From Deltaproteobacteria bacterium (GTDB taxonomy: Bacteria > Myxococcota_A > UBA9042 > DTJE01): DNA of 64,000 bases. Below are positions 6,158 to 22,868 of the stretch, piece after piece. The stretch lies in the NCBI GenBank assembly GCA_029547805.1, contig JAKPOP010000010.1, positions 397,675 to 461,674 of the forward strand, written 5' to 3'. Made by a program: the position numbers and the translations under genes. The notes below the pieces were generated by a model that was not told the origin of the DNA, ran no database searches, and worked only from the letters and a program-made list of their open reading frames with translations. Numbering within the stretch: position 1 is the stretch's first letter; the number at the start of each line of letters is the position of its first letter.

Positions 6158-6838
6158 TCACCGCGTCGTGTCGGCGCCCCAGATCACCTTGTGCCACTGG
6201 AGTCCCAGGCGGATCGGCCGACCCGACTCCAGCACCCACCGGGCCACCTCGGACGGATCCAGGGCCCCGAAGGCGGGCGTCGCGAAGACCGCTCCGACCC
6301 GGTCCCAGACCCCGGTCTGGTCGGCCCAGGCCAGGGCCCACTGGAACTCCCGCCGGTCCCGGACCACGAACTTCACCTGGTCCGCCGGGCCCAGACGGCT
6401 GAGGTTGCCGGGCCAGAGATGGGGCGCCGGGGGCACGGGGTCCTCCGGCGCCCAGGGGAGGTCGGGGCGATGCACCCAGGGCGTCTTCACGTCCACCACC
6501 CGGGCCGTCCCGGCCGGCAGCATCCCAAGGTCCCGGGTGCCATTCGTGAAGACCTGCACGGCGATCCCCCGGTCCAGCAGGCCCCGGGCCAGGTCCGCGA
6601 CCTCCGGTTGCAGCAGTGGTTCCCCGCCGGTCAGGCACGCCAGGGAGGTCTCCCAGGCCAGCACCTCGGCCAGCACCTCCCGCCAGTCCCGTTCCACCCC
6701 CGCAGCCATCTCCTGGGCCGGTCTCGTGTCGCACCAGGGGCACCGGAGGTTGCACCCCGCAAGACGCACGAAGACGCAGGGGCGTCCCGCCTCGATTCCT
6801 TCTCCCTGCAGCGATCGGAAGACCTCGAAGACCCGCAT
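6158..6838 (-). CDS. queE: 7-carboxy-7-deazaguanine synthase QueE
   Basis: QueE is a radical SAM enzyme that turns 6-carboxytetrahydropterin into 7-carboxy-7-deazaguanine in the queuosine (preQ0) pathway. The 226-residue protein has the N-terminal substrate motif SLQGEG (residues 9-14), the cluster motif Cys29-x3-Cys33-x2-Cys36 (CNLRCPWCDT) and the SAM-binding TGGEPLLQ near residue 70, plus VFTNGT. Length is normal. No queC, queD or queF lies beside it. It converges with the anti-sigma gene, with only 22 bases between them. Confidence 0.93.
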   Translation of the reverse strand: MRVFEVFRSLQGEGIEAGRPCVFVRLAGCNLRCPWCDTRPAQEMAAGVERDWREVLAEVLAWETSLACLTGGEPLLQPEVADLARGLLDRGIAVQVFTNGTRDLGMLPAGTARVVDVKTPWVHRPDLPWAPEDPVPPAPHLWPGNLSRLGPADQVKFVVRDRREFQWALAWADQTGVWDRVGAVFATPAFGALDPSEVARWVLESGRPIRLGLQWHKVIWGADTTR

Positions 6839-6928
6839 GGGGCAATCCTAGCGCCTTTCGGCCAGGCCAGGATCGCCGGGGCCTCCGAAACCGACTATGC
6901 TTCCCTGGACTTCTGCCGGGAGCACCCG

Positions 6929-9019
6929 ATGACCCGGGGATTGCATCGAGTCCTGTGGCCGGCATGGGCGGCAGCCTTGCTGATGCCCATGTCCAGGGCC
7001 GACGGAGCCTTCCTCCGGGACCTCCCGCTGGAGGTCCGCCAGTGCGACGGCAGCCGGCTGGACGTGTGGGTGACCGGTGATGAGTCCCACCGGACGGTCC
7101 GGGACGGGTCGGGGCAGCCCCTGGAACGGGACCCCCTGACAGGCTGCATCGGGCCAGCGTTCGGGACGCAAGTGCCGACATCGGGACGACTCCACCCGGC
7201 GACCTCTCTCCCGGCCCGGGCCTGGGAGCCCTCGGGCCTGCTGGGGACCGTCGTGAACCTGGCCATCTTCGTCCGCTTCGAGGGCGACGACGAGATGACC
7301 GAGCGCATCGAGGACTTCGAGGACCAGTTCAACGCGACGACCCCTGGATCGACGTCGATGCGGGCCTTCTTCCAGGAGGCCTCGGTGGGCGCGGTGGACC
7401 TCCTGACGGTGTTCCTGCCGCCGGCCGACGACCAGGGGTGGGTGGTCGCCTACACCGACCCCCACAGCCGGGGCTACTACGGGGTCTATCACCCCACCGC
7501 GAACCCCTCGGGCTACCGGACCGACCAGGAGGCCGGGTGGCGGGAGCACGCCCTGCTCCAGTCGGCCCTCGAGGCCGTCGAGGCGATGGTCCCGGCGGAC
7601 CTGGACCTGGATGCCAATGACGACGGGTTCGTGGACAACGTGGTCTTCCTGGTGGACGGTCCCCCCGGGGACCCCTGGTCGGGCCTCCTGTGGCCCCACA
7701 TGTGGGCCTTCCCCGACCCGGTGCCGTTCCGGGGCCTCGCCGTGAACCTCTACAACATGAACTTCACCGGCCTGCTGCGGTTCTCGCCGGGGACCTTCGC
7801 CCACGAGATGGCCCACACGCTGGGCGCCCCGGACCTCTACCACTACAACCAGGACGACCTGCGACCCGTCGGTCCCTGGGACCTGATGGAGCAGACCCTG
7901 TCGCCCCCCCAGCACCCGCTGGCCTACCTGAAGTGGCGCTACCTCGGGTGGATCCCGGAGCCCCCGGAGGTCGGCCATGGGGCGGAGGTGCGCCTGTGGC
8001 CGTCCTGGGCGCTGGGGACCCAGGCGGTGTGGGTCCAGGCCGGTCCGGACCCCCGCCAGTCCTTCTGGCTGGAGTACCGCCGGGCCGAGGGCCCCTTCGA
8101 GGGCTCCCTGCCGGCATCGGGGCTGCTGGTCTACCGGGTGGACGACTCGGTGGCAGGGGACGGGAACCGCAGCGGGCCGCCGGACGAGGTGTACGTCTTT
8201 CGCCCCGGAGGAAGCCCAGGGCTCCGGGGCCAGGTGGTGCAGGCCCCCCTGGGAGCCGACACCGGCCGGGACCGGATGCACGAGATGACGGACCCCGCCC
8301 CGTTCCTGCAGGATGGGACCCCCGTGACGCTCCGGGTGTACGACGTGCGGGAGGACGAGGCCGGCGTGACCTTCCGGGTCTGCCTGGTGCCGCCGGACCG
8401 CGGGGATCGGGTCTGTGGCGACGACGGGTGCGGCGGTCTCTGCGGGACCTGTCCCAAGGGCCACCGCTGCACCGAGGGGACCTGCGAGGCCTGCTCCTGC
8501 GAGGGGCGTTCCTGCGGGGACGACGGCTGCGGCGTGTCCTGCGGGACCTGCGACGACGGCAATCCCTGCACGGTGGATCGCTGCGAGGCCTGGACCTGCC
8601 GTTTCGATCAGGTGCCCGTCGGGTCCCCCTGCGACGACGGCGACCCCTGCACCGCAGGAGACCGGTGCGGCCCCGAGGGGACCTGCCAGGGCGATCCCGC
8701 CTGCCTCCCGGAGGACGTCCCGGTGGCGGACCTCGCCACCGACACCCCGTCGCAGGATGCCCTGGACGTGGGGATCGACGGGGCGACTCCCCCGGACCCG
8801 GGCCCCGGCGAGGACCGGGCGACCGACGGACCGTATCCGGAGGATGGCGGCGACAATCCGGCAGATGGGGCCCTCCCGCCTCCGGCAGGGTCAGGCCACG
8901 GATGCGGGTCCGGACCCGCCGGGAGCCCCGTCGGGCTGGCGGCCGGGATCTCCCTGCTCTGGATCTGGGCCTGGCGCAGACGGGGGACAGTCACCCATGG
9001 ACCCCACTCAACCCATTGA
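6929..9019 (+). CDS. M6-type secreted metalloprotease with MYXO-CTERM-like tail
   Basis: This 696-residue secreted zinc protease has a signal peptide (about 1-24), then an M6 (immune inhibitor A-like) catalytic domain with the zinc motif HEMAH at residues 292-296 followed by a downstream Asp-Leu-Tyr segment. Around residues 490-600 there is a Cys-rich region made of CGDDGCGGxCGTC-type units found in many deltaproteobacterial surface proteins. An acidic Pro-Asp linker follows. The last 40 residues carry a Gly-Cys motif, a hydrophobic helix and an RRR cluster, a MYXO-CTERM-like sorting tail. A weak -10 (TATGCT, 6896-6901) precedes the ATG. It probably acts at or beyond the outer surface. Confidence 0.85.
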   Translation: MTRGLHRVLWPAWAAALLMPMSRADGAFLRDLPLEVRQCDGSRLDVWVTGDESHRTVRDGSGQPLERDPLTGCIGPAFGTQVPTSGRLHPATSLPARAWEPSGLLGTVVNLAIFVRFEGDDEMTERIEDFEDQFNATTPGSTSMRAFFQEASVGAVDLLTVFLPPADDQGWVVAYTDPHSRGYYGVYHPTANPSGYRTDQEAGWREHALLQSALEAVEAMVPADLDLDANDDGFVDNVVFLVDGPPGDPWSGLLWPHMWAFPDPVPFRGLAVNLYNMNFTGLLRFSPGTFAHEMAHTLGAPDLYHYNQDDLRPVGPWDLMEQTLSPPQHPLAYLKWRYLGWIPEPPEVGHGAEVRLWPSWALGTQAVWVQAGPDPRQSFWLEYRRAEGPFEGSLPASGLLVYRVDDSVAGDGNRSGPPDEVYVFRPGGSPGLRGQVVQAPLGADTGRDRMHEMTDPAPFLQDGTPVTLRVYDVREDEAGVTFRVCLVPPDRGDRVCGDDGCGGLCGTCPKGHRCTEGTCEACSCEGRSCGDDGCGVSCGTCDDGNPCTVDRCEAWTCRFDQVPVGSPCDDGDPCTAGDRCGPEGTCQGDPACLPEDVPVADLATDTPSQDALDVGIDGATPPDPGPGEDRATDGPYPEDGGDNPADGALPPPAGSGHGCGSGPAGSPVGLAAGISLLWIWAWRRRGTVTHGPHSTH

Positions 9020-9080
9020 CCTTTCTGGCAATCAACCACAACGGGCGTCCCGAAGGGTTCCCGGGCATGTCGGTCGGGAA

Positions 9081-9100
9081 CCATGACACCGCCGTCATGG
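9081..9100. repeat. 20-bp inverted repeat in intergenic gap
   Basis: CCATGAC and GTCATGG flank a 6-base centre between the M6 protease and the Cys-rich gene. The stem is perfect, but no T-run follows, so it resembles an operator more than a terminator. It lies about 50 bases upstream of a possible -10 (TATTCT, 9151-9156). Confidence 0.4.
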
Positions 9101-9234
9101 GAAGGGCGATCCGGGGAGAACCGTTGGTGGTCAATGCCTCGATTTTCCGGTATTCTGGTGCTGGCATGGCTCCTGCAGAATCGAGAGGCAGGCCCCCCCT
9201 TGGGGAGGGGAACCGGTCTTTCAGGAGGTGTTCC

Positions 9235-10296
9235 ATGAGACACGCAATCTCCCTGATGCTGCTGGTCGGACTGGGCGGCTTCCCAGTGGCGGTGCTGGCA
9301 GCCGACAAGTGCACGACCGACGACGACTGTCCCGAGGGCCTGATCTGCATGCCCTCCCCCTGCCCGGCCATCGCCTGTGAGGACCCGACCGACTGTCCTC
9401 CGTGCGACTCCGTGGGTACCTGCATCGATCCCGGACCCTCCGGGGGCAGCGGGATCGGGAAGGAGTGCACCACCGACCCGGACTGCCCCTTCGGCTTCGT
9501 CTGCCAGGAGCAGGAGGTTCCCTGCCCCGGGGCCGCCTGCCCGCCCTGCGACTGCGGCTGCCGTCCTGGAGAGGAGGGCTGCGACTGCCAGTGCCCCGAG
9601 TGCCCCGAACCTCCGCCCTGCGAGCCGATGTTCGTGAAGGTCTGCGTCTATAGGCCCAAGGCCTGTTCGGTGGATGAGGACTGCGGCCCGGGCTTCCAGT
9701 GCGTGGCCGAGGAGGCCTGCTCCGGCGGCTGCGCCTGCGCCGGATGCGCCTGCCCCTCCTGCCCCGAGGGGGCCGATTGCCCGCCCTGCGAGTGCCCGGA
9801 CCCCGATCCCTGCACCTGCGACACCGAGCCGACCTGCGAGGTCACGGGGCACCACTGCGAGCCGATGCAGATCCCCTGCGCCGAGGATGCCCAGTGCCCT
9901 GCCGACTGGACCTGCTCGCCGGTCGGCGGCACCGCCTGCCTGTGCCCCGACTGCGCCTGCCCGTCCCCCGATGGGGAGGGAGGCGCCACCGACTGTGAGT
10001 GCGGTCCCTGCGAGTGCGACCAGGAGTCTTCGGACCAGTTCTGTCTGCCGCCGGGATGGGCCGATCTGGGAATCGTCACCCCGGGCGACGGGTCCTACGG
10101 TCAGCCCCGGACGGACCCCACCGATGGGGAGGCCTCCGGCGGGACCGTTCAGGAAGATGGCACCGCCGCCCCGACGACCCATGAGACCGGCATGGTGCCC
10201 CCCTCCAAGGGAGGCTGCATGGCCGCCTCTCCCGCGGACGCACTTCCCCTGGCGCTGATCCTGCTGGGGCTGGCGGTTCGTCGCCGGCGCCCCTGA
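9235..10296 (+). CDS. Cys-rich surface protein with MYXO-CTERM-like tail
   Basis: This 353-residue secreted protein starts at ATG after a strong AGGAGGTG. Residues 1-22 are a signal peptide. The mature part contains dozens of cysteines in repeated CTTDxDCPxGxxC and CxCPDCxC units, resembling small disulfide-bonded modules in deltaproteobacterial surface proteins. A Thr-Pro-Gly rich linker leads to a C-terminal Gly-Gly-Cys motif, a hydrophobic helix and RRRR, a clear MYXO-CTERM-like signal. No enzymatic motif is visible; a structural, adhesive or metal-binding role is possible. Its neighbour upstream carries the same tail type, so both are probably handled by the same sorting machinery. Confidence 0.85.
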   Translation: MRHAISLMLLVGLGGFPVAVLAADKCTTDDDCPEGLICMPSPCPAIACEDPTDCPPCDSVGTCIDPGPSGGSGIGKECTTDPDCPFGFVCQEQEVPCPGAACPPCDCGCRPGEEGCDCQCPECPEPPPCEPMFVKVCVYRPKACSVDEDCGPGFQCVAEEACSGGCACAGCACPSCPEGADCPPCECPDPDPCTCDTEPTCEVTGHHCEPMQIPCAEDAQCPADWTCSPVGGTACLCPDCACPSPDGEGGATDCECGPCECDQESSDQFCLPPGWADLGIVTPGDGSYGQPRTDPTDGEASGGTVQEDGTAAPTTHETGMVPPSKGGCMAASPADALPLALILLGLAVRRRRP

Positions 10297-10383: not shown

Positions 10384-10412
10384 TTGACCGGGATGCCGCA
10401 ATGGGGTACAAG
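10384..10412 (+). promoter_or_regulatory. Promoter of the cobalamin riboswitch transcript
   Basis: TTGACC and TACAAG are separated by exactly 17 bases. The predicted start site, about 7 bases downstream, coincides with the first base of the riboswitch P1 stem at 10419, which supports both calls. Confidence 0.65.
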
Positions 10413-10418
10413 GCCCAC

Positions 10419-10565
10419 GGATGGGCGGTGCAGGAAGCCGGTGAGAGGCCGGCGCTGCCCCCGCAACTGTCACCGGGGACGAACCCAGAACAGCCACGGG
10501 CGCCGGGTGGCGCCTGGAAGGACTGGGGGAGAGGGATCCGGGAGCCAGGACACTCGCCGCCATCC
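10419..10565 (+). ncRNA. Cobalamin (B12) riboswitch
   Basis: The aptamer closes with a P1 stem, GGATGGGCGG at 10419-10428 against CCGCCATCC at 10557-10565 (one bulged G). Between them are the conserved core words of the class: GCCGGTGAGA (10437-10446), CCGCAACTGT (10461-10470), GCCAC (10493-10497), TGGAAGG (10515-10521) and the B12 box AGCCAGGACAC (10543-10553). It adenosylcobalamin-responsively represses the three-gene uptake operon downstream, as known for this family. The next base pairs form the expression platform. Confidence 0.93.
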
Positions 10566-10598
10566 GGACAACGCACGCGGTTTCGGAGGGAAGCGGTG

Positions 10599-10691
10599 CG
10601 GATCCTCCTCGTCTCCCGGCGGACCAGTCCTCGTCGCGATACGTGAGATCCGGTGCCATGGCTGCCCCCGAGACCCGAACCAGAGAGGAGG
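10599..10691 (+). promoter_or_regulatory. Riboswitch expression platform with anti-Shine-Dalgarno
   Basis: CCTCCTC at 10604-10610 is a perfect complement of the ribosome binding site GAGGAGG at 10685-10691. A second 6-base pairing, CGGATC (10599-10604) with GATCCG (10647-10652), competes for part of the same segment. No U-run is seen, so translational control by masking the ribosome binding site is more likely than transcription termination. This is inference from complementarity. Confidence 0.5.
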
Positions 10692-10696
10692 AGCCC

Positions 10697-12412
10697 ATGC
10701 GTCACCTGGATCAGACCGTTCGTGCCCTGTGGGTCGTCTTCGGGGTCCTCGCAGCGGCGGGATGCGAGACCTCGGAATCGACGCCCGACTCCACTGCGGG
10801 AGACCTCCTGCAGCCGGACATCGCGCCCGATGCCCCCGCCGACTCCCAGCCCCCCGAGGATCCGGGAACCTGGGACTCCCCCGAGGCGACGGACGTCCCG
10901 GGAGAGGACTCCCCCGACGTCGGGACAGCGGACCTCCCCGGAGAACTGGAGACCGAAGACGCCCTCCCGACAGACACGGCGACGGAACTGGCAGCGGACC
11001 TGGCGACTGACACGGGGGAAGACGTCTCGCCGCCCCAGGACCAGGGCACCGACGGCGACCTTCCCGGGCCGCCGCAGGAGGGGATCGAGATCGCCGGCCG
11101 ATGGGTGGACGACTGGGGGGGACGCCACGTGATCCTGGATGGCTCCTGGGAGATGGTCGGGATGGCCTTCTTCCACATCCTGGAGTTCCACAACGACGGC
11201 CGCTGGATCGTGGCCCAGAACGACCTGCGCAACGACTGGAGCCCCGGTCTCTTCAGCCGCTTCGACTGGACTGTGACCGAGGCTGGCCTCTGGTACTGCC
11301 AGACCGCCTTCGCCGCCGCGACCCGGGAAGAGGCCGCCGCCACGCCCGCTGCCGACCCCACCGACCCGGCCACCGGGGGCTGCGGCGGCTTCCCCTGGAC
11401 CCGACTGGTCCCCGATGACCGGGAACGACTGGAGATCGCCGGGACCTGGCAGGACCCCTGGGGCGGAACCCACCGAATCTCCGAGTCCCGGTGGGAGATG
11501 GTGGGCATGGGGTCCTTCGAGGTGCTGGAGTTCCACAACGACGGCCGCTGGATCGTGGCCCAGAACGACCCGGCCAACCAGTGGAACCCGGGCCTCTTCA
11601 GTCGCTTCGACTGGACCTTCCTCGACCAGAACCTCTGGTATTGCCAGACGGCCTTCGCGGCCGCCTCCCGGGAGGAGGCCGCCGCCACGCCTGCGGCCGA
11701 CTCCACCGACCCGGCCACCGGGGGCTGCGGGGGCTTCCCCTGGACCCTGCTGACCCCCGATGGAACCCCGGCAACGGCGGACCTGTGGATCAGTGCCCCG
11801 GGCCACACCGGGACCCACTTCGAGGACGCCTACCGAGCGGTCAACGGCGTTCGGGGCGGCGGCCAGAACGCCGGCAGCACGGACGTGTTCAGCCTGGGCT
11901 ACCGGGAGGGCATCGACAACTACCTCGTGCTGGGATTCCGTGGCTCCCGGATCCGCAATGGCCCCGGGGCCGACTTCGTGGTCTTCGAAAATCCCTTCGA
12001 GTATGCCCCGGGCCAGGTCTTCATGGACCTCGTGGTGGTCTTCCTGTCCCGGGACGGAGTCCATTGGGTCCCCTTCCCGCACCGGTACCTGGCCGAGGAC
12101 CCGGCGGTCTATCAACCGGCCCCCTCCCTGTGGCCGGGATTCGCGGGACGGACGCCGGTCCTCTACCACCAGGAGGACCACGCCGTGGACCCCTTCGACC
12201 CGGACCAGGCCGGCGGGGACGCCTTCGATCTGAGCGACCTTCCCGACGAGGGAGAAGCGGGAGAGATCCGTCGTCAGGGCGTTGCCTACCTGAAACTGGT
12301 CACGGCACCATCGTTGACCAATCCCGACACGGGAGCCCTCTATGTCCGGGACCCGGCCTCGAACGGTGCGGACATCGACGGGGTGATCGCCCGGTACCTG
12401 GCCCCGCGATAG
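10697..12412 (+). CDS. Surface lipoprotein with duplicated domain, B12 operon
   Basis: This 571-residue lipoprotein is the first gene under the cobalamin riboswitch. The signal peptide ends in lipobox AAGC (Cys23), followed by about 100 acidic, Pro-rich residues. Residues about 131-245 and 246-356 are two near-identical repeats (IAGxWxDxWGG, then FHNDGRWIVAQN, then LWYCQTAFAAA and GGCGGFPWT). The last 210 residues form a separate domain with ADFVVFENPF and LSRDGVHWVPF, resembling the family loosely annotated as cell surface protein near B12-regulated receptors. ATG follows GAGGAGGAG, which the riboswitch platform can mask. Cobalamin capture or delivery to the receptor is inferred from the operon; no catalytic motif is seen. 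Confidence 0.75.
   Translation: MRHLDQTVRALWVVFGVLAAAGCETSESTPDSTAGDLLQPDIAPDAPADSQPPEDPGTWDSPEATDVPGEDSPDVGTADLPGELETEDALPTDTATELAADLATDTGEDVSPPQDQGTDGDLPGPPQEGIEIAGRWVDDWGGRHVILDGSWEMVGMAFFHILEFHNDGRWIVAQNDLRNDWSPGLFSRFDWTVTEAGLWYCQTAFAAATREEAAATPAADPTDPATGGCGGFPWTRLVPDDRERLEIAGTWQDPWGGTHRISESRWEMVGMGSFEVLEFHNDGRWIVAQNDPANQWNPGLFSRFDWTFLDQNLWYCQTAFAAASREEAAATPAADSTDPATGGCGGFPWTLLTPDGTPATADLWISAPGHTGTHFEDAYRAVNGVRGGGQNAGSTDVFSLGYREGIDNYLVLGFRGSRIRNGPGADFVVFENPFEYAPGQVFMDLVVVFLSRDGVHWVPFPHRYLAEDPAVYQPAPSLWPGFAGRTPVLYHQEDHAVDPFDPDQAGGDAFDLSDLPDEGEAGEIRRQGVAYLKLVTAPSLTNPDTGALYVRDPASNGADIDGVIARYLAPR
11087..11431 (+). repeat. Tandem domain repeat, copy 1 (345 bp)
   Basis: First copy of an in-frame 115-codon unit in the lipoprotein gene. 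It shares an identical 45-base block with copy 2 (11180-11224 here, 11525-11569 there) and long near-identical stretches near its end, so the duplication is recent or kept homogeneous. Confidence 0.85.
11432..11763 (+). repeat. Tandem domain repeat, copy 2
   Basis: Second copy, offset by exactly 345 bases from copy 1, without the short linker at the end. The Trp, Cys and Gly positions (WYCQTAF, GGCGGFPW) are all conserved between copies. Confidence 0.85.
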
Positions 12413-12429
12413 GTCGACAGGAGGCGATC

Positions 12430-14352
12430 TTGGAGGGAGCCGGCCGCAGGTCCGCCCGTTGCCCAGGCCCCACCGGGACCTGGGCCGTCCTGGTGCTGGG
12501 GTGTGCCGCGCTGCTGCCTGCCCCAGGAAGGGGGGACCCTCCGGCCTCCCCGGAGGTCCTGGAGGTGCCCCCCATCGACGTCGAGGGCCTCCCGCCCGCG
12601 TCCCCCGACGTCGCGGGCTCCCAGGTGCGGGACCCGGTGGATCGCCCCGAGGACCTCGAGGCCCCCCGAGGCCCCGCCGCCGCGGTCGGTCGCCTGCCTG
12701 CCGTGAGGCTGCGGGAGTCTGGGGGACCTGGCCAGCCACAGACCGTGATGATCCGAGGAACGGACCCCTCGGCGACCCTGGCCTCCCTGGACGGGGTGCC
12801 CCTGAACTCCCCATTCCTGGGCGGCGCAGACCTGACGGGCCTGGACCTGATCCCCCTGGAGGGCCTGGAGGTGGTCCGGGGAGGACGGGGACAGGAGGCG
12901 GTCGGGGGACGACTGGAGGCCCGGACGCCGGACCCCCTGGGGGGATCCCGGAGCCAGGCAACGCTGGGCGCCGGGTCCTTCGGGTCCTTCTGGCTGAAGG
13001 GTTTCGCGGTGCAGCCTCTGGGAGACCGGGTCGGCCTGCTGCTGGGCGCCGGGGGCCAGCGATCGGAGGGACGGTTCCCCTTCCGGGACTCCAACGGCGT
13101 GGCCCGGCAACGGGACCATGCCGCCTCGTCCTCCCTGGAGGCCACCATCCGGGTGGACGGGCTGGCGGGGGCCGGCTGGCGCCTGGGGGGTCTCGTGGAG
13201 GGCGCCTTCACCGATCGCCAGGAACCGGGCCTGGAGCAGTTCCCCTCGGAGACCGCCACCCACCAGGACTCCCGGCTGGTGCTTCTGGCCCGGGGCAACG
13301 GCCCCTTGCCGGGGACGATTCCCGGGTCCCTGGAAGGGGCCCTCTACTACCGACGCCTCTCCTTCGTCTACCGAGACCCACGCCCCCCCATGGGGCCGCC
13401 GACGGCCTCCACGCTCATCGCCCACGGAGTCGGGGGCCACCTGACGGCCGAGGTCGCCCCCTGGCCCATCGCCTCCCTCTTCGGGAGCCTCGAGGGGACC
13501 GGCGACCTGGGGAGGGTGTATCGCCTCTCCCAGGCCCCCGAGCGTCCGGCCCGCGGAACCCTCGCCGGGGCCGTCGGGGCCCGCATCGGCCGTTCGTCGG
13601 ACCCCTTCGAGGTCTCGGGAGAGGCCCGGGTGCTCTGGGCCCAGGGGGCCGGGGTGCGCATCGCCCCCCGGATCGGCGTCTGGTGGACGCCATGGGGACC
13701 ATTGCGCCTCTTCCTGAACGGGTCCCGAGCCTTCCGATTGCCCACGCTGGAGGAACTGCACTTCGACGTGGGCTTTGTCCAGGGCAATCCGGACCTGCGG
13801 CCCGAGGAGGCCTGGACCTGGGACGGTGGCCTGGAGGCCGGTCAGCCTGGGACCTGGCGACTCCGAGCCGCCTACTTCGAGAACTATCTGGACAACGTGA
13901 TCCTCTTCCTGCCCCGGTCGGCCTTCCTGGTGAAGGCAGACAACTCGGGACGGGCCACGATGCGGGGAATGGAGGCCCTCGGAGAGTTCACCTGGCGCTT
14001 CCTGTCGGTCCGGGCCTCCTACGCCTTTCTCTGGAGCGCCTTCGGCGCCTCGGGGCTCTCGTTGCCGGACCGTCCTGCCCACACGGTCCAGGGGGAGGTG
14101 GCCCTGACCCTGTGGACCCTGCGCCTGGCGGTCCTGCCAGGCTGGCAGTCGTCCTTCTACCTGGACCGCTTCGAGTCCACCTCGGAGGAGGGACGGTTCC
14201 GGCTGGATGCGCGGCTCGATTGGCGCCTCCGGGACACGGTGCGCCTGTCCCTGGAGGCCCGGAACCTGACCAACAAGCGGGACGCGGTGGATTCCCTGCA
14301 GCGGCCGCTGCCAGGGTTCTCCCTGTGGGCCCAGGTGAGCATCTCCCCATGA
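12430..14352 (+). CDS. TonB-dependent outer-membrane receptor, BtuB-like
   Basis: This 640-residue receptor has an N-terminal signal peptide, a plug domain (about 90-200, with QTVMIRGTDPSATLASLDGVPLNSP and LEGLEVVRGG-type plug motifs) and a beta-barrel ending in the receptor signature LEARNLTNKRDAVDSLQRPLPG. It imports a large ligand through the outer membrane using TonB energy; cobalamin is the likely ligand because the operon starts with a B12 riboswitch. The start is TTG after AGGAGG (12419-12424), as no ATG or GTG fits before the signal peptide. The final residue is Pro rather than the usual aromatic. The stop overlaps the next ATG. Confidence 0.85.
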   Translation: MEGAGRRSARCPGPTGTWAVLVLGCAALLPAPGRGDPPASPEVLEVPPIDVEGLPPASPDVAGSQVRDPVDRPEDLEAPRGPAAAVGRLPAVRLRESGGPGQPQTVMIRGTDPSATLASLDGVPLNSPFLGGADLTGLDLIPLEGLEVVRGGRGQEAVGGRLEARTPDPLGGSRSQATLGAGSFGSFWLKGFAVQPLGDRVGLLLGAGGQRSEGRFPFRDSNGVARQRDHAASSSLEATIRVDGLAGAGWRLGGLVEGAFTDRQEPGLEQFPSETATHQDSRLVLLARGNGPLPGTIPGSLEGALYYRRLSFVYRDPRPPMGPPTASTLIAHGVGGHLTAEVAPWPIASLFGSLEGTGDLGRVYRLSQAPERPARGTLAGAVGARIGRSSDPFEVSGEARVLWAQGAGVRIAPRIGVWWTPWGPLRLFLNGSRAFRLPTLEELHFDVGFVQGNPDLRPEEAWTWDGGLEAGQPGTWRLRAAYFENYLDNVILFLPRSAFLVKADNSGRATMRGMEALGEFTWRFLSVRASYAFLWSAFGASGLSLPDRPAHTVQGEVALTLWTLRLAVLPGWQSSFYLDRFESTSEEGRFRLDARLDWRLRDTVRLSLEARNLTNKRDAVDSLQRPLPGFSLWAQVSISP

Positions 14353-15665
14353 AACGACTGCCGTTGCTGCCCTGGTTCCTGGGACTCTGGCTGGCCTGTG
14401 AGCCCACCCCGGGCCTCGAGCACGACGCCGGCTCGGAAGGCATCCACGACGCCGGCGACCTTCCGGCGTCGGCCGATGGCCCCCAGGACCTTCCCGAGGA
14501 TGCGGCTCCACCCCCGCCGAGGGACATCCCCGGAATCGATGCCCGCGACCCCGGTCCCGACGGAGGGACGGTGGACCTCCCGGACCCCGGTCCCCTCCCG
14601 GACCGGGACTTCTCCACCCCCGAGGGGATCACCCTGGCCGGCCGCCATGTCGTGGTCGCCAATCCCGACTTCCGGTACGACGGCCAGCGGATGGTCTTCG
14701 GCACCGGCTTCCTGACCGTCGTGGACCGAGGGTCGCGCCAGGTGGTCCAGCGCATCGCCCTGCCCTGCCGCAATCCCCAGGAGGTCTCCTGGGACGGGAC
14801 CCGCCTGTGGGCCCTGTGTTCCGGGGAGACGACCTTCGACGGCACGCTGGTCCGGCCCGCCGGGCAGGCGGCCCTGGTGGGCCTCGATCGGTCGGGGGAC
14901 CCGTTTCGCATCGTGGCCTGGATGCCCATCGTCCCGAGCCCCACGCATCCCCTCGTCGGATATCCCTCGTCCATGGCCTTCCTGGACGGACGGGCCTACC
15001 TGGCCAGCGGCACCACGGCCGCGCTGCTGGTGGCGGACCTCGAGGCCGGACACCTGCTTCGATCGCCCGATGCCCCCCTGTCCCTGGAGTCCCTGGGCCT
15101 CGGCGGGCTGGCGGACCAGGACACGGTGAAGGTCCTCACGGGCCCTCCGGGCGTGCTGCTGGCGGGGTCCTTCAACCGGGACCGAGTGCTGGCCTTCCGA
15201 CTCCCGGGAGGGGCCCCGGACCCGATCCAGTCTCTGGAGGTCGGGGTGGAGGGGATGCTGGATGGCGTGCTGGACCTCGCCTGGCGGCCCGGCGGGACCC
15301 CGGAACTCTACGTCCTGCTGGGGCTGGCCCAGCGAGTGGTGGCCGTGTCGGACCTCCTGGGCGCCCCCCGGGTGGACGACCGGTTCGCAGTGACCGGCAC
15401 GATGCCGAATCGGATCCTGCTGGACCGGGACCGCCTGTGGATCCTGGATAGCGGGGACAATCGGGTCACGGCGGTCGATGCCGACACCGGCAGGCCCCTG
15501 GAGGTCCGGGCCCTGATGCCGCCGGGGACCAATCCTTACGCGATGGCCGCCGGGGACTGGGAGGGCCGCCCGGAACTCTACGTGACCGGCCTGCGGTCCA
15601 ACTCCCTGTGGGTCTTCGACGCCGACACGGGTGACCTGCTGGCCCAGGTCCCACCGGTCCCCTGA
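14349..15665 (+). CDS. Beta-propeller (YncE-like) lipoprotein, BtuG-like
   Basis: This 438-residue lipoprotein (lipobox WLAC, Cys17) overlaps the receptor stop by ATGA. After an acidic 70-residue linker it consists of repeated beta-blades with motifs such as GFLTVVDRGSRQVVQ, RLWILDSGDNRVTAVDADTG and LYVTGLRSNSLWVFDADTG, typical of YVTN/YncE seven-bladed propellers. In Bacteroidota the surface lipoprotein BtuG has this fold, sits on BtuB and captures cobalamin with extreme affinity. The same neighbours here suggest an equivalent role, though sequence kinship with BtuG cannot be established by eye. Confidence 0.75.
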   Translation: MKRLPLLPWFLGLWLACEPTPGLEHDAGSEGIHDAGDLPASADGPQDLPEDAAPPPPRDIPGIDARDPGPDGGTVDLPDPGPLPDRDFSTPEGITLAGRHVVVANPDFRYDGQRMVFGTGFLTVVDRGSRQVVQRIALPCRNPQEVSWDGTRLWALCSGETTFDGTLVRPAGQAALVGLDRSGDPFRIVAWMPIVPSPTHPLVGYPSSMAFLDGRAYLASGTTAALLVADLEAGHLLRSPDAPLSLESLGLGGLADQDTVKVLTGPPGVLLAGSFNRDRVLAFRLPGGAPDPIQSLEVGVEGMLDGVLDLAWRPGGTPELYVLLGLAQRVVAVSDLLGAPRVDDRFAVTGTMPNRILLDRDRLWILDSGDNRVTAVDADTGRPLEVRALMPPGTNPYAMAAGDWEGRPELYVTGLRSNSLWVFDADTGDLLAQVPPVP

Positions 15666-17976: not shown

Positions 17977-18921
17977 CTATGCAGGAACGGCGGGATCAGT
18001 GCGGTACATCGGTGACTGTCCCTGTCCGTCGGCGGCAAGGGCGTGGGCGATGGGGGCCAGGGTCTGGCGGAACAGGATGCGGGGGCCGTCCACGGCGTCG
18101 AGCAGGTAGTCCAGGAGGTCGGTCCCGTGGGGGCTGCGGGTGTAGTCCCGGTCCCGTGGAACCGCCGTGAAATGCTCGGCCTGGAGCAGGTCCTCCATCG
18201 AGACGCGGCGACCCCCCACCCGGACAAGGCAGTCCAGTCCTCGGACGATGGATCGGACCGGCGCCAGCACCGAGTCCTGGGAGATCCAGCAGGCCATCAT
18301 CCGGGCCTTGGCCTCCCACTCCCGAGCCGTCAGCCGGACCTCGTGGACGGGGTCCCGATGCCACGGGGGAAACCGGAGAGGCACAGGCCAGGCCAGGTCC
18401 AGGATCGGCACCTCGAACAGAAGGGCCTCCGGCAGCCGGTCCAGGGCCCGCCGGACCCAGAGGTGGACCAGGTCATGGATCGGCTGGGCCCCCTGCCATC
18501 CCATCGTGACCACGACGTCGGGCCGAAAGGCCATCACCTCAGCGGCCACCAGGCGCCCGACGTCCCGCATCCGCCCGAAGACCTCGTGGCGCTTCCGGGG
18601 GTCCTGCTGGCACTGCCGAAGGGCCTGGTAGAGCCCGATCTCCCCCTGGCCCAGGAACCGCAGGCGGTCCCCCGAGACCCCCACCGCCGCCATCGCCGCC
18701 TCGGTCTCCAGGCGACGGGCGGCCGCCAGTTCGGCCGGCCGCACCTGAAGCGACTCGGCCAGGCCGTCCCCGTCGGTGACCCACAGGAACCTGGCCGTCG
18801 ATGGCAGGCGTTGGGCCAGCCCTCCACAGGACATCTCGTCGTCGGGATGGGCCATCACCACGAGCACCCGGGCCCCCGGGTCCATCACCCGGGACGGCCA
18901 CGGCAATACAATCCGACTCAT
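17977..18921 (-). CDS. PIG-L/LmbE family deacetylase
   Basis: This 314-residue protein belongs to the zinc-dependent N-acetyl sugar deacetylase superfamily (MshB, LmbE, PIG-L). The signature AHPDDE lies at residues 24-29, and the later His motif HDLVH around 147-151 provides the third metal ligand. Substrates in the family are GlcNAc conjugates; this one is unknown. The ATG follows AGGAGG with 33 bases separating it from the upstream gene, so it is probably the last gene of a three-gene operon with the two secreted proteins upstream. The C-terminal 100 residues extend beyond the core fold. Confidence 0.85.
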   Translation of the reverse strand: MSRIVLPWPSRVMDPGARVLVVMAHPDDEMSCGGLAQRLPSTARFLWVTDGDGLAESLQVRPAELAAARRLETEAAMAAVGVSGDRLRFLGQGEIGLYQALRQCQQDPRKRHEVFGRMRDVGRLVAAEVMAFRPDVVVTMGWQGAQPIHDLVHLWVRRALDRLPEALLFEVPILDLAWPVPLRFPPWHRDPVHEVRLTAREWEAKARMMACWISQDSVLAPVRSIVRGLDCLVRVGGRRVSMEDLLQAEHFTAVPRDRDYTRSPHGTDLLDYLLDAVDGPRILFRQTLAPIAHALAADGQGQSPMYRTDPAVPA

Positions 18922-19483: not shown

Positions 19484-20821
19484 TCAGGGGCAGCCCGGCT
19501 GCCCATCGTAGGGGAAACCGAGCCCTTCCGTCACCATCCGGGTGACCGATCCCGTCTGCCCGCCCTCGGCGCAGAGCAGGGCGTCCAGGAAATCGACGAA
19601 GTCGGCCCCCTCGCCGCCCCGGTCCCACCGGGTCATCCGCTCGGACCCGAAGGCCCGGAGCACCCGGTCGGTCCCGATGGCGATGCCGTCGTTCCAGGCA
19701 TTGCCCTCGGCCACGTCGGCCCCGTCCCAGAGATGCCACAGCATCGATACGACGTAGGACTCGTCGAGGTTCTGGGCCATGCCGGCCCCCGGGTCCGGCC
19801 GGACCAGGTCCCCGCCGAAGTAGGTCATGGCATCGTAGTCGATCCAGAGGGAGTTGCCCTCCTGGATGTCCCAGTACATCGGGAAGGGCTCCCCGATCCA
19901 GCGGCTGAAGGTGCTGACGGCGAAGAAGGAGGCCCAGCCTTCGGACCAGGCGAAGGCCGGGGCGATCGTCTGGCCGAAGCCGTGGGGCCCCCCGGGGGAG
20001 TCGTCCCGGCTGTAGTTGGCCGCCACCGAGTGACCGAACTCGTGGAGCGTCACCGTGAAGCCCCAGGCCGAGGACTCCTGGGCACCCCCGGCCAGGAAGA
20101 TGCTCTGCCGCATCTCCGGGCCGTTCTGGATCTGCTGGGGCGTCTCCCGGGAATAGCAGGCCCCGCAGGTCCAGTTGACGCCGGGATACCAGAGAATGCC
20201 CACCGAGACCAGGCAGTCCTCGTTGCCGTTGCAGAGGTCCTCCAGGATCGTGGCCTGGGCGGCAATCATGAACAGGAACACGTAGAGGGCCCCGCTGCCC
20301 TGTTCCTCCCGGATCTCCACGCGGCCCACGTCCCCCCCGTCGGGCACCTGCGCCACCCAGGCCCAGGGGGCGCTGGTCGCCGAACCGGGCTCGTAGGTCC
20401 CCGGGCCGTCCACCGGGGGCTGGAGCACCGCCAGAAAGATCCCCGAGGACTGGAGCGTCGGGGCCCACAGGGTCGTGAAGATCAACAGCTCGCCGCCGGC
20501 GAGGTCCCGCTGGAGGGGCACGTCGAAGTTCCCGTCGCCGTCCACCTGGGCCATGCCGATGACCTCGCCGCCGGCGTCGATGACCACCGCCGCGGCCCCC
20601 ACGGCCGGCAGGGTCTCGAGGGTGTCCAGCGTGATGGCGCCTCCCGCCACGCTCGGGAATCGGGCCTGATAGAAGAGGCTGCCCCGGACCCGGTCCCCCG
20701 AGGGCGTCCCACCGCCGCCGCCACCACCGCCGCCGCCTCCCGGAGAGTCGGACGGGGAGGGGCAGCCCAGGAAGGCGAGCAGCAGTCCCAGGCACGCCGA
20801 TCGGCACGGGGAAGCGTTCAT
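19484..20821 (-). CDS. Zinc-metalloprotease-like lipoprotein
   Basis: This 445-residue lipoprotein has lipobox FLGC (Cys20), an 11-residue poly-Gly linker, a beta-sandwich segment (residues 45-170) and a catalytic-like region with HEFGH at 260-264 followed by a WASFF-containing helix that could supply the third ligand. The arrangement suits a gluzincin-type surface peptidase. Six or more cysteines suggest disulfides. The ATG follows GAGG, and a good promoter lies upstream, divergent from the oligoendopeptidase gene. The family is not pinned down. Confidence 0.78.
   Translation of the reverse strand: MNASPCRSACLGLLLAFLGCPSPSDSPGGGGGGGGGGGTPSGDRVRGSLFYQARFPSVAGGAITLDTLETLPAVGAAAVVIDAGGEVIGMAQVDGDGNFDVPLQRDLAGGELLIFTTLWAPTLQSSGIFLAVLQPPVDGPGTYEPGSATSAPWAWVAQVPDGGDVGRVEIREEQGSGALYVFLFMIAAQATILEDLCNGNEDCLVSVGILWYPGVNWTCGACYSRETPQQIQNGPEMRQSIFLAGGAQESSAWGFTVTLHEFGHSVAANYSRDDSPGGPHGFGQTIAPAFAWSEGWASFFAVSTFSRWIGEPFPMYWDIQEGNSLWIDYDAMTYFGGDLVRPDPGAGMAQNLDESYVVSMLWHLWDGADVAEGNAWNDGIAIGTDRVLRAFGSERMTRWDRGGEGADFVDFLDALLCAEGGQTGSVTRMVTEGLGFPYDGQPGCP
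20702..20745 (-). repeat. Gly-codon trinucleotide repeat
   Basis: A run of GGC/GGT/GGA codons encodes the poly-Gly linker after the lipobox of the zinc-protease lipoprotein. Such runs change length easily and could vary the tether length between strains. Confidence 0.6.
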
Positions 20822-20847
20822 GGCAGCCTCGATGGAGGAACGAGAGG

Positions 20848-20877
20848 ATTCTACGCGGAGGCCCCTGGAAAGGTCAA
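20848..20877 (-). promoter_or_regulatory. Promoter of the protease-deacetylase operon
   Basis: On the minus strand TTGACC and TAGAAT are 18 bases apart. The -35 sits only 4 bases from the -35 of the divergent promoter, so the two polymerases must compete. Confidence 0.65.
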
Positions 20878-20881
20878 CGCC

Positions 20882-20910
20882 TTGGACCGCCCGGGGGATT
20901 GCCCTATCAT
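20882..20910 (+). promoter_or_regulatory. Promoter of the oligoendopeptidase gene
   Basis: TTGGAC and TATCAT are separated by 17 bases. The start site would lie about 47 bases before the ATG at 20964. Confidence 0.65.
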
Positions 20911-20963
20911 CGGCCGGCGCGGCATGCTGGAGCCGCGTTGCCGGAGAACTACAGGAGGTCCCG

Positions 20964-22868
20964 ATGCCCGATGTCCGAACTCCCCGCCCCGGATGGGCCT
21001 GCGTGCTGCTGCTGATGGCGCCCTCGGGCGCCCAGGCCGGCTGGCCTGCCTGGACCCCGAAAGGCGACGCGAACCGGGAGGAGATCCCCGGCGAGTACCG
21101 CTGGAACCTCTCCCACCTCTACGAAGACGCCCAGGCCTGGGAGAAGCACTTCGCCCAGGTGGAGACCCGGATCCCGGAGGTCCGGCCCTGCGCCGGCACG
21201 CTGGCCCGAGGACCGGCCCGGCTCCGGGAGTGCCTGGACCTGGCCTTCGACCTCACCTACCAGGTGCAACTGCTGGGGACCTGGGCGGAGGCCGACTTCA
21301 CGACCCGGCGGACCGACCCGGCGGCCAAGGCCCGGTCGGACCGGATCCAGGCCCTCCACACGCGGCTGGCCCAGGCCACCGCCTGGATCGAGCCGGAACT
21401 GCTGGAGATGGACCCGGCCACCCTGCAGCAGTTCGTGGCCGCCGAACCGGGTCTGGCCCAATACGATCACTACATCGACGACCTGATCCGCCGGCGGCCC
21501 CACGTGCTGTCCCGGGACCAGGAACGCCTGCTGGCCCTGTCCGGGGACCTGCTGGCGGCCCCCGAGTCGATTCACGGAGCCCTGGAGGAGGACATCCCCT
21601 TCCCAAAGGTCCGGGACGAGCAAGGACAGGAACAGGCCCTCACCTTCGCCACGTTCCCGAAGTTCCGCGCATCCCCGGACAGGGAGGTCCGCCGGTCCGC
21701 CGTCGATGCCTTCCTGAAGACCATGAAGGCCTACGGGCGGTCCTTCGCGGCGTCGCTTGATGCGGCGGTGAAGGCCCACGTCTTCATCGCCCGGGCCCGG
21801 GGATACGACTCGGCCCTGGTGGCCTCGGTGGACCAGAACGCGGTGCCGGTCCAGGTCTATGAGACCCTGCTGGAGGTGGTGCACCGGAACCTTCCGGCCA
21901 CACTGCACCGGTACGTGGACCTGCGCAAGCGCCTGCTGGGCCTGGACCAGGTCCACTACTACGACCTCTATGTCCCGATGTTCCCGAAGGCCCGCCGGGA
22001 GGTTCCCTACGGCGAGGCGGTGGAGATGGTCCAGCAGGCCCTGAAGCCCCTGGGTCCGGACTACCTGCGAGTGCTGGCCCAGGGCCTCTCGCCGGACCAG
22101 GGATGGGTGGACGTCTTCCCGGCGAAGGGAAAGCGCCCCGGGGCCTACTGCAACGCCGCATGGCGCAAGCACCCCATCGTCTTCCTGAACCACATGAACG
22201 AACTGGAGGACGCCTTCACGCTGGCACACGAGTTTGGTCATGCCCTCCATTTCCACCTGGCCGGCGAGGCCCAGCCCTTCCCGAAGGCCGACGCCCCCAT
22301 CTTCCTGGCGGAGATCGCCTCGACCTTCAACGAGGAGATGCTGCTGGACCACCTGCTGCGCCAGGCCCGGACCCGGGACGAGCGTCTGGCCCTGCTGAAC
22401 AAGCGCCTGGAGAACCTCCGGACCACGATCTTCCGGCAGGCGATGTTCGCGGAGTTCGAGAAGGCGATCCACGAGGAGGTGGAGGGCGGCGGGGCCCTGA
22501 CCGCCGAGCGCATGGCGGAGATCTACGAGGGCCTCGTGCGGACCTACTACGGGCCCGACTTCACCGTGGGGCCCGAGGACGGCTATGAGTGGGCCTACAT
22601 CCCGCACTTCTATTACAACTTCTACGTGTACCAGTACTCCACGGGCCTGATCTCGGCCATCGCCCTGGCCCAGAAGGTCCTGAAGGGCGAGAAGGGGGCG
22701 GTGGCCCGGTATCTGGACTTCCTGAAGGCCGGCGGGTCGGACTACCCGGTCGAGACCCTGAAGCGGGCGGGAGTGGACCTGACCCGGCCCGAGTCCATGC
22801 AGGCCGCCTTCGACCTCTTCGCCAGGACCCTCGACGAGATCGAGGGCCTCACCCGTGGCAGGAGATGA
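20964..22868 (+). CDS. pepF: Exported oligoendopeptidase F (M3 family)
   Basis: This 634-residue M3 peptidase hydrolyses short peptides. Visible are the N-terminal family motif YRWNLSHLY (about 46-54), the zinc motif HEFGH at 422-426 with FNEEMLLDHLL downstream (third ligand Glu), and the C-terminal substrate loop HFYYNFYVYQY typical of PepF. A hydrophobic signal sequence (residues 10-24, ending GAQA) suggests export, unlike most PepF enzymes, which are cytosolic. ATG follows ACAGGAGG. It is divergent from the zinc-protease lipoprotein operon. Confidence 0.92.
   Translation: MPDVRTPRPGWACVLLLMAPSGAQAGWPAWTPKGDANREEIPGEYRWNLSHLYEDAQAWEKHFAQVETRIPEVRPCAGTLARGPARLRECLDLAFDLTYQVQLLGTWAEADFTTRRTDPAAKARSDRIQALHTRLAQATAWIEPELLEMDPATLQQFVAAEPGLAQYDHYIDDLIRRRPHVLSRDQERLLALSGDLLAAPESIHGALEEDIPFPKVRDEQGQEQALTFATFPKFRASPDREVRRSAVDAFLKTMKAYGRSFAASLDAAVKAHVFIARARGYDSALVASVDQNAVPVQVYETLLEVVHRNLPATLHRYVDLRKRLLGLDQVHYYDLYVPMFPKARREVPYGEAVEMVQQALKPLGPDYLRVLAQGLSPDQGWVDVFPAKGKRPGAYCNAAWRKHPIVFLNHMNELEDAFTLAHEFGHALHFHLAGEAQPFPKADAPIFLAEIASTFNEEMLLDHLLRQARTRDERLALLNKRLENLRTTIFRQAMFAEFEKAIHEEVEGGGALTAERMAEIYEGLVRTYYGPDFTVGPEDGYEWAYIPHFYYNFYVYQYSTGLISAIALAQKVLKGEKGAVARYLDFLKAGGSDYPVETLKRAGVDLTRPESMQAAFDLFARTLDEIEGLTRGRR

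Follow-up and report, generated by a model that had tools for sequence, protein, structure and literature searches.

How might a bacterium outside the Bacteroidota capture vitamin B12 at its surface? To our knowledge, lipoprotein-based surface capture of B12 has been worked out only in gut Bacteroides. BtuG has been reported to be exclusive to Bacteroidetes (PMC6143338), BtuH has been described from Bacteroides (PMC8941943) and, outside the Bacteroidota, demonstrated B12 binding is limited to DUF4465 proteins (PMC13398666). The question is raised by an operon in the genome of a deltaproteobacterium placed in the Myxococcota (assembly GCA_029547805.1), which lies in a 64-kb stretch of contig JAKPOP010000010.1 (positions 397,675 to 461,674; hereafter the window, whose first letter is position 1 of the coordinates given here). 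A cobalamin riboswitch is followed, all on the + strand, by genes for a lipoprotein (gene 1, product P0001), a TonB-dependent receptor (gene 2, P0002) and a β-propeller lipoprotein (gene 3, P0003); the next downstream gene is on the opposite strand, and we therefore take the operon to consist of three genes. We conclude that the operon very probably encodes a system for the capture of corrinoids (vitamin B12) and their import across the outer membrane, built as a BtuB-type importer with two surface binders, one a remote relative of BtuH and the other a BtuG-like propeller unrelated to BtuG. This conclusion draws on the riboswitch, the gene order, the domain families, the remote homology to BtuH, the recurrence of the arrangement in other genomes and the absence of a marker gene for corrin-ring synthesis. 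An initial annotation of the same DNA had proposed a riboswitch-controlled B12 uptake operon with surface lipoproteins outside the Bacteroidota, a proposal that the riboswitch, the lipoprotein signals and the BtuB-type receptor support.

The riboswitch and its expression platform

The aptamer (10432..10554, +) matches the cobalamin riboswitch family RF00174 with an Rfam score of 74.2 bits (E 2e-16), well above the gathering score of 31.5, and so bears out the claim of a cobalamin riboswitch ahead of a TonB receptor with two flanking lipoproteins. It is the sole Rfam family matched in the window and the only RF00174 match in the genome (4,076,059 bases in 32 contigs, 96.7% complete). Its end lies 142 nt from the ATG of gene 1, and a cobalamin riboswitch occupies the equivalent position in L028, L038 and other related loci.

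Immediately 3' of the aptamer, comparison with relatives reveals a hairpin, CGCA..GTTTC(GGAGG)GAAGC..TGCG (10572..10600, +), which is probably P13 of the expression platform and would make a kissing-loop contact with the aptamer. Every relative inspected has an equivalent hairpin, with a TTCGGG-type loop, behind its aptamer. In two of them, L035 and L040, the hairpin loop reads GAGCG and the aptamer loop is altered from GCCCCCGC to GCCGCCGC; a kissing-loop platform would be expected to show such a joint change. The leader RNA did not fold more stably than its shuffles (z -0.12), and neither an intrinsic terminator nor a promoter consensus was found in the leader of the operon. The expression platform was therefore assessed by comparison with relatives alone. 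Control at the start codon appears the likelier mode, because no intrinsic terminator was seen.

The gene 1 lipoprotein and its relationship to BtuH

Gene 1 (10697..12412, +) encodes a lipoprotein of 571 amino acids and begins at an ATG preceded by a Shine-Dalgarno-like AGGAGGAG; the start at 10384 given earlier is an arbitrary upstream TTG. P0001 comprises a signal peptide, a lipobox (LAAAG-C23), an acidic linker, two LIC13354-like domains and a C-terminal LIC_13355-family, BtuH-like domain, so that the order LIC13354, LIC13354, LIC_13355 (54-54-55) is fused in one protein. The C-terminal domain (∼206 amino acids; 11777..12394, +) exceeds the cut-off of NF033170 (133.2 bits; cut-off 120) and was modeled by AlphaFold with a mean predicted local distance difference test (pLDDT) score of 95.8. 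The initial annotation had described a lipoprotein with a duplicated domain: the duplication stands, as two tandem copies of ∼110 amino acids that are 75% identical, but the C-terminal domain had been overlooked.

Several lines of evidence point to a remote relationship between this domain and BtuH. With a profile of relatives from outside the Myxococcota, the best PDB match was Bacteroides BtuG1 (8blw_B, E 3e-4), and the match lay within the C-terminal BtuH domain (residues 434-498), outside the propeller; only this profile found BtuGH, PDB searches with the single sequence and with the LIC_13355 profile returning no match. A genuine BtuH reference was found in a Bacteroidales genome (7biz at E 8e-54, 8blw_B at 7e-68), and ten such proteins were gathered. 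Alignment of the LIC_13355 and BtuH profiles with hhalign gave probabilities of 93-95 and E values of 4e-8 to 3e-7. The relationship is reciprocal: among 641 open reading frames (ORFs) of nine btuH loci, the LIC_13355 profile matched the nine BtuH proteins only (E 7e-9 to 6e-4), and the BtuH profile, applied to 121 loci with 12,546 ORFs, matched 62 ORFs, every one a member of LIC_13355. The same profile search of the nine Bacteroidales loci found no LIC_13355-type gene except btuH.

The aligned core carries the motif FENxF, present here as FENPF (11984..11998, +) and invariant in 41 of 41 and 44 of 44 aligned members. All 85 aligned members share the Asn and the aromatic residue of this motif, two positions that align with Asn399 and Phe401 of BtuH2, which contact the phosphate and the lower ligand of B12 in the crystal structure (PMC8941943); the residue numbering of 7biz was verified at Gln333, Asn399 and Phe401. 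Like BtuH (BT_1956/BT_1488; 7BIZ) and the H-domain of BtuGH (BT_1490; 8BLW chain B), P0001 is thus a lipoprotein with a homologous domain that carries the Asn399/aromatic 401 pair, and in both settings the gene belongs to a riboswitch-controlled operon with a BtuB and a propeller, and fusions to a propeller occur. BtuH differs in its PKD/Ig N-terminal modules, whose place is taken by LIC13354-like barrels in gene 1, and in its phylum. The initial annotation had linked the locus to the Bacteroides system through the BtuG propeller; profile hit and reciprocal hidden Markov model search instead place the link in the C-terminal domain of gene 1, as a remote relative of BtuH.

The tandem domains that precede it (copy 1, 11084..11413, +; copy 2, 11429..11758, +; each ∼110 amino acids, delimited from an alignment of 34 copies) appear related to the LIC13354 exoprotein family without being members of it: P0001 scores 24.3 bits against NF047669, under the cut-off of 130, and NF047669 matches 18 of the 34 related copies at E <= 1e-3. 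AlphaFold models copy 2 as a small β-barrel (pLDDT 94.7), and a fold search with this model gave no PDB match better than E 0.4. In Myxococcota and in a Spirochaetales record (L138), one or two such barrels precede the BtuH-like domain; as a guess, the duplicated barrel might be an auxiliary module for corrinoid binding or docking.

BtuJ/DUF4465 jelly-rolls are also surface B12 binders that occur near BtuB and propellers in several phyla (PMC13398666). Theirs is a family distinct from that of gene 1; no DUF4465 Pfam match was found in P0001 or in members of its family, and an assignment of gene 1 to BtuJ/DUF4465 was rejected on that ground.

Distribution of the LIC_13355 family and its association with riboswitches

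In a survey of the phylum covering 237 genomes, a LIC_13355 match (E <= 1e-3) was found in 95, and 80 of these were searched for cobalamin riboswitches together with the genome of the window. A riboswitch lies on the same strand within 8 kb upstream of 56 of the 82 LIC_13355 hits, the distance being typically 200-1400 bases; given that a genome of ∼6 Mb has about two riboswitches, ∼0.1 would be expected by chance. When 84,980 species genomes were scanned using the family alignment, 80 loci came up from at least six phyla, among them Myxococcota, Bacteroidota, BRC1/Sumerlaeota, WOR-3, Planctomycetes (Planctomycetota), Chlorobiota and others; 59 of them have an upstream same-strand riboswitch (median distance 1.4 kb), and a BtuB-like receptor and a propeller are also present in 31. 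The set of 82 hits and that of 80 loci partly overlap, and the records include metagenome-assembled genomes (MAGs), which may be mis-binned. Rfam confirmed the riboswitch in eight of eight Bacteroidota loci tested and in eight loci of other phyla, the score being weak in one (L138, 34.8 bits).

The last of these, from a Spirochaetales MAG (RUG12558), carries LIC13354 and LIC_13355 domains fused behind the weak riboswitch, and is the closest link found toward the Leptospira LIC13354/LIC_13355 pair; the BtuH-like family probably stands behind cobalamin riboswitches in the Spirochaetota as well. A search of 28 genomes of the phylum around this record gave weak matches, plasmids gave no match, and the scan of 84,980 genomes returned no Leptospira locus. 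The initial annotation had suggested a spread beyond the Bacteroidota. This was correct, and the spread is wider than claimed, taking in Myxococcota, Sumerlaeota/BRC1, WOR-3, Planctomycetota, Chlorobiota and probably Spirochaetota; it suggests that Myxococcota may compete for corrinoids using dedicated surface proteins.

Individual loci show further arrangements. In L025, from a Myxococcota genome, the riboswitch and the LIC_13355 gene are followed by cobS, for cobalamin-5-phosphate synthase (6298-7659, -). L066 has a second LIC_13355-like stretch (7530-7965, -), as do L023 and L027, within a large ORF that diverges from the riboswitch-led operon and lies upstream of it. In one Myxococcota family, a protein of ∼630 amino acids with no Pfam or NCBIfam match is encoded directly behind the LIC_13355 gene (L048, 8749-10641; L057, 8534-10447) and is possibly an unrecognised outer-membrane partner.

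The BtuB-type receptor and corrinoid dependence

Gene 2 (12430..14352, +) begins at a TTG behind a Shine-Dalgarno AGGAGG and encodes a receptor of 640 amino acids with a plug (PF07715, 4e-9) and a barrel (PF00593, 2e-29), as in BtuB of E. coli (1NQF) and Bacteroides (8P97/8P98). Its top NCBIfam family is TIGR01779 (TonB-B12, 82.4 bits), followed by BtuB PRK10641 (76), siderophore (53) and haem (50) families, and its nearest solved relatives are E. coli BtuB (E 2e-16) and then Bacteroides BtuB. A maximum-likelihood tree places P0002 among receptors of Myxococcota, WOR-3 and Bacteroidota that are encoded beside LIC_13355-type lipoproteins and linked to riboswitches; a branch with support of 99/96 splits this group from E. 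coli FepA, CirA and FhuA and also from E. coli BtuB, so that gene 2, unlike the E. coli protein, groups with the Bacteroidota, WOR-3 and Myxococcota receptors. An earlier tree that included the three paralogues of this genome was unusable owing to long branches. Placement in a siderophore clade, which the initial annotation had set against its view of a B12-type receptor, finds no support in the NCBIfam ranking (82 versus 53 bits) or in the 99/96 branch; the top family, the best PDB match and the tree agree on the B12 type. We assign P0002 to the BtuB type, for which cobalamin transport would be the predicted function.

A siderophore or haem receptor might nonetheless be encoded here, with a coincidental riboswitch and with lipoproteins that act as adhesins, as has been proposed for Leptospira LIC_13355. 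The siderophore (53) and haem (50) scores of P0002 are not nil, and recombinant LIC_13355, after refolding, attached to laminin, plasminogen and endothelial cells (PMC11891782), although those data come from refolded protein and no corrinoid test was seen in the sections consulted. The receptor tree and the reciprocal homology to BtuH argue for corrinoid import instead, as does the association of LIC_13355 with riboswitches, which greatly exceeds chance expectation in bacteria from many phyla, both free-living and gut-dwelling. We hold the siderophore-and-adhesin explanation to be highly improbable.

The genome holds only four PF00593 barrels. CbiC/CobH, a marker of corrin-ring synthesis, was not found in this 96.7% complete genome, yet 21 B12-binding domains were, and the organism is for this reason a probable B12 auxotroph that would rely on imported corrinoids. 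The gene content bears on a second alternative, namely that the system carries other B12-related cargo (cobalt, a cobalt chelate or cobalophore, or corrinoid precursors) and that the riboswitch senses cobalamin as the end product. Cobalamin riboswitches control cobalt uptake genes too. One such riboswitch lies ahead of cbtAB and the cob operon in Leptospira (PMC3493377). Free cobalt would not, however, meet the need of an organism without CbiC/CobH, and the kinship of the lipoprotein domain with a B12-binding domain and of the receptor with BtuB also speaks against this alternative; we regard such cargo as unlikely.

The propeller lipoprotein

Gene 3 (14349..15665, +) encodes 438 amino acids, starts at an ATG in a 4-base overlap with the end of gene 2 (ATGA, shared by start and stop codon), and has a lipobox (LWLA-C17) followed by a propeller domain (14598..15635, +). 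In position and build P0003 matches BtuG (BT_1954), the seven-bladed propeller that caps BtuB: both are propeller lipoproteins encoded beside a btuB-type gene under a cobalamin riboswitch. The initial annotation considered it BtuG-like, and descent from BtuG is not borne out. The P0003 propeller is divergent, with a weak YVTN repeat match and with the S-layer propeller 1l0q as its nearest solved relative. Against a BtuG profile built from Bacteroidota propellers adjoining BtuB, which detects true BtuG at E about 1e-85, P0003 scores 14.7 bits and is surpassed both by E. coli YncE (60.2) and by a further propeller from its own genome (42.2); WOR-3 propellers reach 100-110. Membership of the BtuG family was rejected on this score and rank.

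One might still suppose a true BtuBG system in which P0003 is a fast-evolving BtuG orthologue acquired from the Bacteroidota. The position beside a BtuB-type receptor, the lipoprotein signal and the propeller fold would fit such an origin, and a profile of the Myxococcota propellers does match BtuG structures (E 3e-6 to 3e-5). Unrelated propellers match that profile equally well or better, however, the S-layer protein 1l0q at the top (E 2e-22), then hydrazine synthase and YncE (6e-7), and with the BtuG profile both E. coli YncE and a paralogous propeller come ahead of P0003, whereas WOR-3 propellers score 100-110 bits. An orthologous BtuG is, in our estimation, very unlikely. P0003 looks like a separate propeller lineage that was recruited to the place of BtuG, which suggests that the pairing of a propeller with a BtuB-type receptor arose more than once.

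In five Myxococcota loci (L029, L034, L039, L041 and L042), a propeller homologous to P0003 is fused to a BtuH-like domain. The BtuGH protein of B. thetaiotaomicron is likewise a fusion of BtuG to BtuH (PMC12751083, PMC10404256), and by analogy the fusions support a joint role of the two proteins. Some of the five loci have a divergently transcribed BtuB-type receptor. No cobalamin riboswitch was found in four of the five genomes, the exception being that of L039 (G229), and regulation in the four must therefore differ.

A model for corrinoid capture

In the model that we propose, the riboswitch would leave the transcript translatable when cobalamin is scarce, and the three outer-membrane proteins would be made. 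At the cell surface, lipoprotein 1 would use its BtuH-like C-terminal domain to bind a corrinoid, whose nucleotide loop would be held by the conserved Asn/Phe pair. The propeller lipoprotein may associate with the receptor, either capping it or offering a second binding site, and so fill the role that BtuG has in Bacteroides, and the BtuB-type receptor would import the corrinoid with TonB energy. The ligand, the surface exposure, the hand-over and the cap role of the propeller are what we infer in this model.

Several observations weigh against it. P0002 falls far under the equivalog cut-off of TIGR01779 (82.4 versus 599.7 bits). About a third of the LIC_13355 hits have no upstream riboswitch, with some of the contigs being short, and one Myxococcota family (f28) lacks the riboswitch in most of its genomes. 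In several relatives the lipoprotein gene has no adjoining receptor, an arrangement that fits a mobile binder like BtuH and not an obligate receptor part. The homology to BtuH spans mainly 50-100 residues; the LIC_13355 domain falls short of BtuH by ∼60 residues, and the stretch with Tyr510, Trp511, His476 and Trp577 is missing from it or unaligned; and Foldseek with the BtuH-like model gave weak matches to discoidin/CBM32 folds (E ∼0.01), BtuH (7BIZ) being absent among the 50 matches listed. Because the domain is shorter, the contact region is missing or unaligned and the fold match is weak, we label it a remote BtuH-superfamily domain and not BtuH itself.

Implications for the Leptospira lipoproteins

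LIC_13355 and LIC13354 of Leptospira (NF033170 and NF047669) are encoded by separate genes with consecutive locus numbers, whereas their counterparts are fused in gene 1. Both are upregulated ∼3.7-fold in host-adapted cells (PMC3953431), and LIC_13355 is described, from work with refolded protein, as a laminin- and plasminogen-binding adhesin (PMC11891782). Riboswitches in Leptospira have been located at btuB and the cob operon and none has been reported at LIC13354/LIC_13355 (PMC3953431, PMC3493377), so the B12 link of the Leptospira pair is one of homology only. Our literature search found no published link between LIC_13355 or LIC13354 and B12.

We tentatively propose, at somewhat less than even confidence, that LIC_13355 and its partner LIC13354 are surface lipoproteins for corrinoid scavenging across phyla, forming a superfamily of which BtuH is a branch and which includes the Leptospira "adhesins"; that the LIC13354-like barrel is a structurally new corrinoid module; and that the Myxococcota propeller is an independently recruited analogue of BtuG. 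For LIC_13354/LIC_13355, whose function was previously unknown, a BtuH-like family that riboswitches mark in several phyla supplies a function open to testing, and it offers an alternative reading for a Leptospira surface lipoprotein that has been studied as an adhesin.

Genomic surroundings

Two listed ORFs upstream of the operon (6191-9019 and 7690-10296) encode proteins with Cys-rich repeats whose hydrophobic/arginine tail at the C-terminus resembles MYXO-CTERM, in agreement with the initial description of the neighbours as of MYXO-CTERM type; the first carries an M6-like metalloprotease domain (TIGR03296, 108 bits, slightly below the cut-off). Downstream of the operon lie ordinary genes for a PIG-L type deacetylase (17977-18921, -) and an M3 oligopeptidase F (20820-22868, +).

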